This document shows, piece by piece, positions 41,101 to 50,100 of a stretch of DNA of 64,000 nt (positions are counted from its first letter, which is position 1; every line of letters starts with the position of its first letter). The notes under the pieces were generated by a model. The model was not told where the DNA came from, ran no database searches, and was given only the letters and a program-made list of their open reading frames with translations. The stretch comes from Crambe crambe (Eukaryota; Porifera; Demospongiae; Poecilosclerida; Crambeidae), in NCBI GenBank assembly GCA_963924555.1, contig OZ004584.1:6137001-6201000 (forward strand), in the 5' to 3' direction. Both the position numbers and the translations under genes were made by a program.

Positions 41101-44100
41101 AGGACATCTCTAGGACAATTCTGGGATATTTGATCACATGCAGGACATCTCTAGGACAATTCTGGGATATTTGATCACATGCAGGACATCTCTATAGGAC
41201 AGTTCTTGATCACTGTAATCATAACAGAACATCTCTAGGACGCACCTGCCCTGCAAAGTCCCAGGCCAGAAACTGCACTGGTTTTTTCTTCTCCTTGAAA
41301 GTGAATTTCTTGGGGTCAGGATAGATCCATGACTCGATATCAATGCCAGCTGTACGCTCCACACGCTTGTCTTCCGGCAGTGCCCTGAGGCGACGCAGGA
41401 GGGTGGTCTTACCTCGCTCCCCACTCCCAATGAAAAACAACTTAATGCTCCGATAATAGTCAGACCTACAGAATTCAATGGGTAAAGGGTGGCCAATGAA
41501 AAAGTAAAGGGTAGCAAGTAAGTATAGTCAGAATAGGTCTGGCTAATGAGAGTAGCTGATAGAATTCAATGGTTAAAGGGTGACCAATGAAAAAGTAAAG
41601 GGTAGCAAGTAAGCATAGTCAGAATAGGTCTGGCTAATGAGAGTAGCTGATAGAATCCAATGGTTAAAGGGTGGCCAATGAAAAGTAAAGGGTAGCAAGT
41701 AAGTATAGTCAGAATAGGTCTGGCTAATGAGAGTAGCTGATAGAATTCAATGGTTAAAGGGTGACCAATGAAAAAGTAAAGGGTAGCAAGTAAGTATAGT
41801 CAGAATAGGTCTGGCTAATGAGAGTAGCTGATAGAATTCAATGGTTAAAGGGTGACCAATGAAAAAGTAAAGGGTAGCAAGTAAGCATAGTCAGAATAGG
41901 TCTGGCTAATGAGAGTAGCTGATAGAATCCAATGGTTAAAGGGTGGCCAATGAAAAGTAAAGGGTAGCAAGTAAGTATAGTCAGAATAGGTCTGGCTAAT
42001 GAGAGTAGCTGATAGAATCCAATGGTTAAAGGGTGGCCAATGAAAAGTAAAGGGTAGCAAGTAAGTATAGTCAGAATAGGTCTGGCTAATGAGAGTAGCT
42101 GATAGAATCCAATGGTTAAAGGGTGGCCAATGAAAAGTAAAGGGTAGCAAGTAAGTATAGTCAGAATAGGTCTGGCTAATGAGAGTAGCTGATAGAATCC
42201 AATGGTTAAAGGGTGGCCAATGAAAAGTAAAGGGTAGCAAGTAAGTATAGTCAGAATAGGTCTGGCTAATGAGAGTAGCTGATAGAATCCAATGGTTAAA
42301 GGGTGGCCAATGAAAAGTAAAGGGTAGCAAGTAAGTATAGTCAGAATAGGTCTGGCTAATGAGAGTAGCTGATAGAATCCAATGGTTAAAGGGTGGCCAA
42401 TGAAAAGTAAAGGGTAGCAAGTAAGTATAGTCAGAATAGGTCTGGCTAATGAGAGTAGCTGATAGAATCCAATGGTTAAAGGGTGGCCAATGAAAAGTAA
42501 AGGGTAGCAAGTAAGTATAGTCAGAATAGGTCTGGCTAATGAGAGTAGCTGATAGAATTCAATGGTTAAAGGGTGGCCAATGAAAAGTAAAGGGTAGCAA
42601 GTAAGTATAGTCAGAATAGGTCTGGCTAATGAGAGTAGCTGATAGAATCCAATGGTTAAAGGGTGGCCAATGAAAAGTAAAGGGTAGCAAGTAAGTATAG
42701 TCAGAATAGGTCTGGCTAATGAGAGTAGCTGATAGAATTCAATGGTTAAAGGGTGGCCAATGAAAAAGTAAAGGGTAGCAAGTAAGCATAGTCAGAATAG
42801 GTCTGGCTAATGAGAGTAGCTGATAGAATTCAATGGTTAAAGGGTGACCAATGAAAAAGTAAAGGGTAGCAAGTAAGTATAGTCAGAATAGGTCTGGCTA
42901 ATGAGAGTAGCTGATAGAATTCAATGGTTAAAGGGTGGCCAATGAAAAGTAAAGGGTAGCAAGTAAGTATAGTCAGAATAGGTCTGGCTAATGAGAGTAG
43001 CTGATAGAATTCAATGGTTAAAGGGTGGCCAATGAAAAGTAAAGGGTAGCAAGTAAGTATAGTCAGAATAGGTCTGGCTAATGAGAGTAGCTGATAGAAT
43101 CCAATGGTTAAAGGGTGGCCAATGAAAAGTAAAGGGTAGCAAGTAAGTATAGTCAGAATAGGTCTGGCTAATGAGAGTAGCTGATAGAATCCAATGGTTA
43201 AAGGGTGGCCAATGAAAAGTAAAGGGTAGCAAGTAAGTATAGTCAGAATAGGTCTGGCTAATGAGAGTAGCTGATAGAATTCAATGGTTAAAGGGTGGCC
43301 AATGAAAAAGTAAAGGGTAGCAAGTAAGTATAGTCAGAATAGGTCTGGCTAATGAGAGTAGCTGATAGAATTCAATGGTTAAAGGGTGACCAATGAAAAA
43401 GTAAAGGGTAGCAAGTAAGCATAGTCAGAATAGGTCTGGCTAATGAGAGTAGCTGATAGAATCCAATGGTTAAAGGGTGGCCAATGAAAAGTAAAGGGTA
43501 GCAAGTAAGTATAGTCAGAATAGGTCTGGCTAATGAGAGTAGCTGATAGAATTCAATGGTTAAAGGGTGACCAATGAAAAAGTAAAGGGTAGCAAGTAAG
43601 CATAGTCAGAATAGGTCTGGCTAATGAGAGTAGCTGATAGAATTCAATGGTTAAAGGGTGACCAATGAAAAAGTAAAGGGTAGCAAGTAAGCATAGTCAG
43701 AATAGGTCTGGCTAATGAGAGTAGCTGATAGAATCCAATGGTTAAAGGGTGGCCAATGAAAAAGTAAAGGGTAGCAAGTAAGTATAGTCAGAATAGGTCT
43801 GGCTAATGAGAGTAGCTGATAGAATCCAATGGTTAAAGGGTGGCCAATGAAAAGTAAAGGGTAGCAAGTAAGTATAGTCAGAATAGGTCTGGCTAATGAG
43901 AGTAGCTGATAGAATCCAATGGTTAAAGGGTGGCCAATGAAAAGTAAAGGGTAGCAAGTAAGTATAGTCAGAATAGGTCTGGCTAATGAGAGTAGCTGAT
44001 AGAATTCAATGGTTAAAGGGTGGCCAATGAAAAAGTAAAGGGTAGCAAGTAAGTATAGTCAGAATAGGTCTGGCTAATGAGAGTAGCTGATAGAATTCAA

Positions 44101-47100: not shown

Positions 47101-50100
47101 ATGAAAAGTAAAGGGTAGCAAGTAAGTATAGTCAGAATAGGTCTGGCTAATGAGAGTAGCTGATAGAATCCAATGGTTAAAGGGTGGCCAATGAAAAGTA
47201 AAGGGTAGCAAGTAAGTATAGTCAGAATAGGTCTGGCTAATGAGAGTAGCTGATAGAATTCAATGGTTAAAGGGTGGCCAATGAAAAAGTAAAGGGTAGC
47301 AAGTAAGTATAGTCAGAATAGGTCTGGCTAATGAGAGTAGCTGATAGAATTCAATGGTTAAAGGGTGACCAATGAAAAAGTAAAGGGTAGCAAGTAAGTA
47401 TAGTCAGAATAGGTCTGGCTAATGAGAGTAGCTGATAGAATCCAATGGTTAAAGGGTGGCCAATGAAAAGTAAAGGGTAGCAAGTAAGTATAGTCAGAAT
47501 AGGTCTGGCTAATGAGAGTAGCTGATAGAATCCAATGGTTAAAGGGTGGCCAATGAAAAGTAAAGGGTAGCAAGTAAGTATAGTCAGAATAGGTCTGGCT
47601 AATGAGAGTAGCTGATAGAATCCAATGGTTAAAGGGTGGCCAATGAAAAAGTAAAGGGTAGCAAGTAAGTATAGTCAGAATAGGTCTGGCTAATGAGAGT
47701 AGCTGATAGAATTCAATGGTTAAAGGGTGACCAATGAAAAAGTAAAGGGTAGCAAGTAAGCATAGTCAGAATAGGTCTGGCTAATGAGAGTAGCTGATAG
47801 AATCCAATGGTTAAAGGGTGGCCAATGAAAAGTAAAGGGTAGCAAGTAAGTATAGTCAGAATAGGTCTGGCTAATGAGAGTAGCTGATAGAATCCAATGG
47901 TTAAAGGGTGGCCAATGAAAAGTAAAGGGTAGCAAGTAAGTATAGTCAGAATAGGTCTGGCTAATGAGAGTAGCTGATAGAATTCAATGGTTAAAGGGTG
48001 ACCAATGAAAAAGTAAAGGGTAGCAAGTAAGTATAGTCAGAATAGGTCTGGCTAATGAGAGTAGCTGATAGAATCCAATGGTTAAAGGGTGGCCAATGAA
48101 AAGTAAAGGGTAGCAAGTAAGTATAGTCAGAATAGGTCTGGCTAATGAGAGTAGCTGATAGAATTCAATGGTTAAAGGGTGACCAATGAAAAGTAAAGGG
48201 TAGCAAGTAAGTATAGTCAGAATAGGTCTGGCTAATGAGAGTAGCTGATAGAATCCAATGGTTAAAGGGTGGCCAATGAAAAGTAAAGGGTAGCAAGTAA
48301 GTATAGTCAGAATAGGTCTGGCTAATGAGAGTAGCTGATAGAATTCAATGGTTAAAGGGTGACCAATGAAAAGTAAAGGGTAGCAAGTAAGTATAGTCAG
48401 AATAGGTCTGGCTAATGAGAGTAGCTGATAGAATCCAATGGTTAAAGGGTGGCCAATGAAAAGTAAAGGGTAGCAAGTAAGTATAGTCAGAATAGGTCTG
48501 GCTAATGAAAGTAGCTGATAGAATTCAATGGTTAAAGGGTGGCCAATGAAAAAGTAAAGGGTAGCAAGTAAGCATAGTCAGAATAGGCCTGCAGTGCTCA
48601 CAATAACAGTCAGTCACAGGACATTTTCCAGTCAATTTCTTCATTTGTCCAGTCATTTCTGCCTTTGTCCGACCAATTTTTCTATTCTAGCTATACTCTT
48701 AAAACTGCTATTAGATACCTTAAGGTGGGCATTATTGGCGGCTACTAATTTTAGCGTTTTAAGGGGATACTGTATTTGGCAGGTATTAATTTTAGCTATT
48801 TTGAGCTTTGTAATAGCTATTTTGTAGTTTCGTATGAAGTTGCTTCAAGAATATCAGGCACAAACAATACAATGCATTATTGTGTCAGTAACTATCATTG
48901 GAGAGTTAGTTTTTTTGTAGATTGAACAACTTCACTGGGGATAGTGATACTTCAATCTGTCACACCTGTCACTCCTATCTTTTTCCACCCTACTTGAGTC
49001 CATGAAATCAGAAGTATAGACTGATGAAGACAACAGTAGCTAGCTAACTCTGCCAGGACACTCAAACAGCTAGCACTGTTTTTGTTCAATATTACTTCTA
49101 ATTATACGAAATTTTATTATTAGCACATGCTTATATTAGCGAATAAAGGCCTACTCGCTAAATTCGCTAAATTAACAAGTCGCCAATAATATCCACCTCA
49201 AGGTAATCATGTCCGGACAATACTAGAGTGTTACTGTGATAGTCAATGGGTAAAGGGTGTCTAATGTTATAGCCAATGGGTAAAGGGTGTCTAATGAAGC
49301 TAAACAATCATAGGTTAAAGGGATGTAAACCAACTCTGCATGGATTCCTAACTCAAATAGTATGGGCACTTACTTCAAAGAATTAATGTGGACTTGAAAA
49401 AGGGTTAAGGGAGGAGGAGGAGGAGGAGGAGGGGAGAGGGGAGGAGGAGGAGGGGAGGGGAGGGGAGGGGAGGGGGGAGGAGAGGAGAGGGAATGGGGAG
49501 GGGAGGGGAGGGGGCTAAACCCACTCCAGGTCCATAAAAGATACTGTCTAACTCAAGTTCAAGGGACTTACTCTTTCAGTCGTGACCTCATGTAGGTGAG
49601 AAGATGGTTGAGGTTGGCCCCTTTGTATTCAGCTGGGGGCTCCACCAAATTAGGAAGATCGTCCATTTCCAACTGAGTCAACTGTCGACTGTTCTTCAAG
49701 TTGGCGAACTCCATGGGGATGGCCGTGAGGTCGTGATTCTTGCCCAATTTGATCCACTTCAAATGAGACTGATGACCGATATTCGGATTAAACTTGCCAA
49801 TGAGCTTATTTGCGGAGAGATTGAGTCCCTCTAAACTTGGATACAGAAGATCGAGAGCTGGTGCCACTTTGTGGTCAAATTCTTGCTCGAGCGTGCCCAC
49901 ATTTTCCTTCTCGCTTTCCGGATTTTGCTTGTGACGAATCAGTTGCATGTATGTTATTCGGTTACCCTGGAGATCTAGTGTTGTGAGGTTTGGAAGGCGG
50001 AGGTGACTCCGATGTTGGCATGCCAACCCAGCTGTTTCGCCATGTCGGCAATTTTGAACCACCCTGGAATGGGACGCTCGACTGATAACATTACCAATTT

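Follow-up and report, generated by a model that had tools for sequence, protein, structure and literature searches.

The window analyzed here is a 64,000-nucleotide (nt) stretch of the genome of Crambe crambe (assembly GCA_963924555.1, contig OZ004584.1, positions 6,137,001 to 6,201,000), and its subject is a minisatellite within one intron of a gene whose sense strand is the minus strand. Exons for ankyrin repeats, leucine-rich repeats (LRR), a Roc domain, and a kinase follow one another in that order (Pfam; matches in five of the nine stretches submitted), and exon translations match LRRK2, LRRK1, and roco4 in the PDB. The Pfam and PDB comparison gave no COR or WD40 match in the exon stretches. 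Because ankyrin, LRR, Roc, and kinase exons sit in one gene, we class it as a LRRK-type Roco kinase gene. The exons were joined by eye, and exon 6, the P-loop exon, keeps its number from the initial annotation. The intron concerned (41466 to 49571, minus strand; 8106 bp) runs from GTAAGT at 49571 to TAG at 41466. It separates the ankyrin-LRR exon (49572 to 52706, minus strand; AAAGA at its end, followed by the donor GTAAGT; 5' border set by eye) from the P-loop exon of the Roc domain (41246 to 41465, minus strand). The latter starts at 41465 and encodes SDYYRSIKLFFIGSGERGKTTLLRRL, a Roc P-loop; it matches Roc in Pfam and, in the PDB, LRRK2 together with Roco proteins, with a weaker match to Ran. 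We placed the splice junction by Roc homology and by the reading frame. At a length of 220 nt, the exon would shift the frame if skipped.

The array (41466 to 48591, minus strand) consists of approximately 79 units of 90 or 91 bp that are 98% alike, the last of which ends at the real acceptor. Tandem Repeats Finder (TRF) reported 78.8 copies of a 90-bp unit with 98% matches at positions 41470 to 48591, in agreement with the roughly 79 tandem copies of the initial annotation. When the array was cut at ATTCTATCAG, 78 exact sites delimited 77 complete units; of these, 48 measure 90 bp and 29 measure 91 bp, and they fall into nine distinct sequences (39 units belong to the commonest type). On the sense strand, which is 68% pyrimidine, ATTCTATCAG, CCCTTTAACCATTG, and TCTGACTAT occur 78, 78, and 79 times in the array, respectively, and CCCTTTACCCATTG occurs once, at the real acceptor. 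Two more copies of CCCTTTACCCATTG lie at 49244 to 49287 in the same intron; with up to two mismatches allowed, it has 85 matches in the window versus 1.16 expected. The genome contains this 14-mer at 13 places, of which 3 are inside this intron; at 4 of the 10 others, compared by eye, no common flank was seen. Each unit contains three AGs, the branch-point-like word CTGAC, and a pyrimidine-rich stretch, so that the acceptor-like content previously ascribed to the units is indeed present. Runs of unit types repeat along the array; the longest, of 10 units, occurs twice, though it is mostly of the commonest type. A higher-order period of four units (362 bp in TRF) is marginal in the order of types, being reached at lag 4 by 51 of 1,000 shuffles. 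A genome search with the unit gave 79 matches, all in this array, among the best candidates scored (very common words were skipped), and on that basis we rejected the unit as a dispersed repeat. No exact match to the one pattern compared was found in viral contigs. Among the titles listed from the open-licence literature, none concerned this array, and the LRRK, sponge, and Roco titles looked unrelated.

The terminal unit (41466 to 41555, minus strand; 90 nt) contains the authentic acceptor CACCCTTTACCCATTGAATTCTGTAG. Compared with its nearest unit type (91 bp, four copies), it shows two substitutions and one gap: it has ACCC for AACC and CTGTAG for CTATCAG, with a 1-bp gap. Since it is nearly identical to the other units over 90 nt, the real acceptor is, on its intronic side, itself an array unit, as the initial annotation had proposed. 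The two terminal-unit differences are absent from the complete units; the inner units, with their nine types, are homogenized, and the boundary copy is divergent. The likeness on the acceptor side is beyond chance: when the unit's 34-bp acceptor part (CATTGGCCACCCTTTAACCATTGAATTCTATCAG) was compared with the end of the equivalent intron of a paralog, none of 2,000 dinucleotide shuffles reached the score. The similarity between units and boundary therefore holds against chance on this side; on the exon side, TCTGACTAT alone is weak.

The paralog shares the contig with this gene at a distance of 99 kb, in the opposite orientation, and it is the one close paralog of the P-loop exon found in the genome search (89% identity over 73 amino acids); seven further Roco-like loci have 34 to 45% identity. 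Over 1,044 codons of the ankyrin-LRR exon, the two copies differ by a dS (synonymous divergence) of 0.073 and a dN (nonsynonymous divergence) of 0.029. The equivalent intron of the paralog is 192 bp long and has no array. It ends in CATTGGCCACCCTTCACCCATTGAATTACTACATATTCTGTAG, followed by the exon sequence GTCTGACTATT, and its acceptor is very similar to the one at the array. Where the terminal unit departs from the other units, it reads ACCC and TTCTGTAG, matching the paralog; the correspondence of TTCTGTAG depends on the alignment, since the paralog carries ten further bases before it. Because the array-free paralog retains a very similar acceptor, the acceptor probably predates the array, and a derived expansion of that acceptor is the most likely description of the array. 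The initial annotation had treated an array-free relative with a conserved acceptor as grounds for doubting the link between the two. The paralog is such a relative; the likeness stands, and the direction it suggests is acceptor first.

The two copies belong to a segmental duplication (window positions 11583 to 54487 and C6:6050001-6120000) that also includes a 613-amino-acid open reading frame with no Pfam match and, wholly or partly, a sacsin-like gene (SACS and HEPN domains); the LRRK copy is inverted relative to the rest of the duplication. One paralog intron is approximately 12.5 kb long where that of this gene is 0.7 kb. The paralogous P-loop exon (L018, 1498 to 1710) encodes DFAAQ at the place of DFAGQ, which we take to be the G3 motif of the GTPase. 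Because of this replacement and because that exon is 9 nt shorter, the GTPase of the paralog may differ.

The exon side of the boundary also resembles the unit. The first 39 nt of the P-loop exon hold TCTGACTAT and TTTTTCATTGG, which the 91-bp units share in the same order, with 18 bases between them in the exon and 20 in the units. In the array, the shorter form TTTTCATTGG occurs at 79 places and the full 11-nt word TTTTTCATTGG at 31 of 79; the first and last units carry the longer form. As two collinear exact words (9 plus 11 nt, or 20 nt), this score lay beyond all of 6,626 coding windows (best, 15) and all of 5,223 random 45-mers (best, 16), and it was not reached at any of the 14 other exon starts. 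In a gap-tolerant alignment with the unit, the exon score was reached by 0 of 3,000 shuffles, and the scores of the upstream intron stood at chance level (793 and 500 of 3,000). We conclude that TCTGACTAT, the word already seen in unit and exon by the initial annotation, is weak alone and that the exon-side likeness convinces only jointly with TTTTTCATTGG, which that annotation lacks. The exon (TTTTTCATTGGGAG) and the paralog intron (TATACCATTGGCCACCC) each contain CATTGG. Before CATTGGCCACCC, the paralog has TATAC, and the 91-bp units and the first and last units have TTTTT; the exon too has TTTTT before its CATTGG. A tandem duplication joining the two CATTGG words would yield TTTTTCATTGGCCACCC, which is found in some 91-bp units and in the first and last units. 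It is thus likely, though not proven, that the unit spans the intron-exon boundary by origin.

With three AGs per unit, the real one, and one at the 5' edge, the array contains 236 AGs. We scored these sites with two crude matrices, one built from 14 further acceptors of the gene that were located by eye (the acceptor at 33667 scores -4.59), and one generic matrix. In the first matrix, the score is 5.82 for the real site and 4.56 for the AG at the 5' edge, compared with 2.2 to 2.9 for the GCCAG decoys (n = 78), 0.0 to 0.7 for the CATTAG decoys, and approximately -0.6 for the TATCAG decoys (n = 78). In the second, the real site scores 2.66, that of the paralog 2.52, and the three recurrent decoys -0.17 to 1.57. 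From 233 of the 234 recurrent AGs, the reading frame meets a stop codon inside the intron: all 78 TATCAG sites (RLKDYSH before the stop in 77 and RLKDYFH in 1), all 78 GCCAG sites, and 77 of the 78 CATTAG sites, the remaining one entering the exon out of frame. The sense strand of the array has 23 GTs and no GTAAGT. An AG directly before a regenerated donor (GTRAGT) was not found in the array. Recursive splicing, which the initial annotation had suggested, is therefore unsupported and was rejected, because AGGT and sense GTAAGT are both absent from the array. At 41470 to 48591, the antisense (plus) strand carries 66 copies of GTAAGT, a strong donor consensus.

Taken together, these observations suggest, with a probability of about 70%, that the minisatellite arose from the 3' end of the very intron it occupies, in one of the two LRRK-type copies. 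The first tandem duplication would have extended from the CATTGG approximately 40 nt before the acceptor to the CATTGG approximately 35 nt into the exon, producing a unit that spans the boundary. Later insertions and deletions may have reshaped this unit to 90 or 91 bp, and unequal crossing-over or slippage would have amplified and homogenized it to approximately 79 copies. The exon presumably cannot accept copies; because it blocks spread on its side, the array would expand into the intron and stop at the junction, where the last copy stays functional. The real site scores above the recurrent decoys and is the closest of them to the donor of the exon, features that may explain why the array is tolerated. 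Because it has few GTs and no consensus donor, the array probably cannot easily form extra exons, and mistaken use of a decoy would give early-stop transcripts. As far as the sequence allows a judgment, a tolerated minisatellite is most likely.

Several observations weigh against this account. The full 11-nt word is present at just 31 of the 79 places, and the 18 to 20 nt between the two words are unrelated in exon and unit, which is odd for plain homology. The two-word statistic was picked after the data had been seen, and the best of three unit forms was taken. In ordinary local alignment, the exon score was reached by 7 of 5,000 and 2 of 5,000 shuffles, and scores at least as high came from 48 or 211 of 5,662 other 60-mers in the window; the match of the non-acceptor part to the first 40 exon bases was equaled by 159 of 2,000 shuffles. 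No clear origin is evident for approximately 22 nt of the unit, and the outermost 5' copy starts inside the supposedly exon-derived part, where a simple model predicts otherwise. A global alignment pairs the paralog TAG with CATTAG of the unit, not with TATCAG, which leaves ambiguous both the local polarity and the choice of the unit AG that corresponds to the authentic one; the proposed polarity is in any case read from a single paralog. As to tolerance, an AG of the intron outside the array scores 7.23 in the first matrix, above the 5.82 of the real site, and among the 14 other real acceptors, 2 fall under 2.9 in the first matrix and 3 under 1.57 in the second. The recurrent decoys score lower than the real site, yet not lower than every real acceptor of the gene.

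Some of these points would be accommodated if the minisatellite were of purely intronic origin, its unit having been reshaped from a multimer of an earlier 30-bp motif (beginning CACCCTTTACCCATTG) that had more than one copy before array formation, and if the exon words were coincidental. Two copies of the 30-bp motif (beginning ACACCCTTTACCCATTG) do lie upstream in the same intron, within a remnant of a short ancestral-type intron (49228 to 49394, minus strand) that aligns with the paralog intron, and two related stretches lie in the paralog intron itself. Such an origin would also suit the 5'-most copy, which starts within the non-acceptor part, and the local alignment of that part with the paralog intron, whose score was reached by only 32 of 2,000 shuffles. 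We nonetheless consider it rather unlikely: the gap-tolerant alignment puts the intron match at chance and the exon match beyond all shuffles, and the 91-bp units have TTTTT ahead of CATTGG, which agrees with the exon and not with the paralog intron. Loss from the paralog of an array older than the gene duplication seems improbable. Deletions of tandem arrays are common, but the non-acceptor part leaves no trace beyond chance in the paralog intron by gap-tolerant alignment (32 of 2,000 in local alignment). The paralog intron also aligns with the upstream remnant of the array intron, and it likewise lacks an inverted-terminal-repeat element resembling a miniature inverted-repeat transposable element (approximately 490 bp; 48715 to 49205, minus strand). 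That element, with the inverted ends TACCTTRAGGTGG, is repeated across the genome, with at least 55 matches listed from the best 40 of 425 candidate places scored.

The AGs, CTGAC, and pyrimidine-rich stretch of each unit, and the intronic stops that follow 233 of the 234 recurrent AGs, would also be expected of a regulatory bank of decoy acceptors, in which the length of the array would set LRRK output by steering splicing toward stop-containing transcripts. Some real acceptors of the gene score under the best decoys, and a human intronic repeat in ABCA7 correlates with exon skipping (PMC5954066). We regard such a function as quite improbable, given that the decoys lie below the real site in both matrices, that the paralog manages without an array, and that early stops are expected in noncoding sequence anyway. 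If it did exist, array copy number would tune the amount of functional LRRK mRNA. An assembly artifact or an inflated copy number is the remaining candidate. Near-identical repeats that extend for 7 kb are hard to assemble, but the nine unit types stand in nonuniform order, the array has one 5' and one 3' flank, and the contig (C6) is 9.08 Mb long; we judge an artifact very unlikely indeed.

Other splice sites of the gene also adjoin repeats. The next intron (40939 to 41245; 307 bp) is largely minisatellite, with GTCCTAGAGATGTYCTG from donor position +5 and related copies throughout (a reading made with no shuffle control), and its counterpart in the paralog has similar repeats. Long microsatellites lie 2 to 3 nt from the exon at two more acceptors, namely a 228-bp (TC)n tract (52968 to 53195) and a CCT-rich tract (34056 to 34231). 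Three of 16 intronic arrays taken from the TRF output lie within 5 nt of a junction (P = 0.017 under uniform placement; the cutoff was chosen after looking). Because of the LRRK array, the neighboring minisatellite intron, and the two microsatellite acceptors, one might imagine a genome that repeatedly grows minisatellites beside splice sites, with the LRRK array as a stop-coupled bank of weak decoys whose copy number tunes functional mRNA; we give this combined idea very little credence.

At present, the array by itself is a sequence curiosity. Two genes whose exon and acceptor are nearly alike, one behind a 192-bp intron and the other behind approximately 79 tandem near-copies of that acceptor region, form a natural test of 3' splice-site choice, and paired expression of the paralogs would reveal how the splicing machinery selects the last site. 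Because the array-free state is retained in the paralog, the pair also gives a likely polarity for the origin of boundary repeats.

Repeats of this kind have been described. Because its 91-bp units carry two ordered words from the exon start, the array is most like the boundary minisatellites named "mirages" in the amphioxus Adh3 and globin genes, which are tandem duplications of an intron-exon boundary (PMC3087553). In BflGb6, mirages comprise the 3' end of an intron and the 5' part of an exon, many with AG/GT signals; the inner units are homogenized with the exclusion of the cluster boundaries, and the authors report data suggesting that regular splicing proceeds undisturbed (PMC3087553). 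The array shares with mirages the head-to-tail repetition at a real splice junction, the inclusion of the intron side of the boundary in the unit, and homogenized inner units beside a divergent boundary copy. The unit may also include the exon side: the 91-bp units carry the two exon words, but local alignments are less favorable, and the middle of that part is unrecognizable. The array differs from BflGb6 in its copy number (approximately 79 copies over 7.1 kb versus six and three units in two BflGb6 haplotypes), in its badly reshaped presumed exon part, in the gene concerned, and in that splicing is here predicted from the genomic letters; its units of 90 or 91 bp compare with 150 to 160 bp in BflGb6 and 10 to 72 bp in Adh3. 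In humans, longer alleles of a variable-number tandem repeat (VNTR) in intron 18 of ABCA7 correlate with more skipping of exon 19 (PMC5954066). That repeat, like the array, is a kilobase-scale intronic repeat with a splice signal in its unit, adjoining an exon for a nucleotide-binding domain; unlike the array, it has a 25-bp unit with a donor signal, whereas the signal here is an acceptor recognized from its sequence. The 31-bp VNTR of human CBS (c.1444_1467+7) spans an exon-intron boundary by its coordinates (PMC2630376) but lies on the donor side, has 16 to 21 copies, and is partly coding. Paralogs in human segmental duplications differ in internal tandem repeats (on average, four 30-bp units; PMC2812944). 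As in those, a minisatellite expansion in one of two copies changes the gene structure, whereas here one intron is lengthened and its position is unchanged. The array thus adds a large example to a class of repeats that is rare but has been described, and it is accompanied by an array-free paralog.

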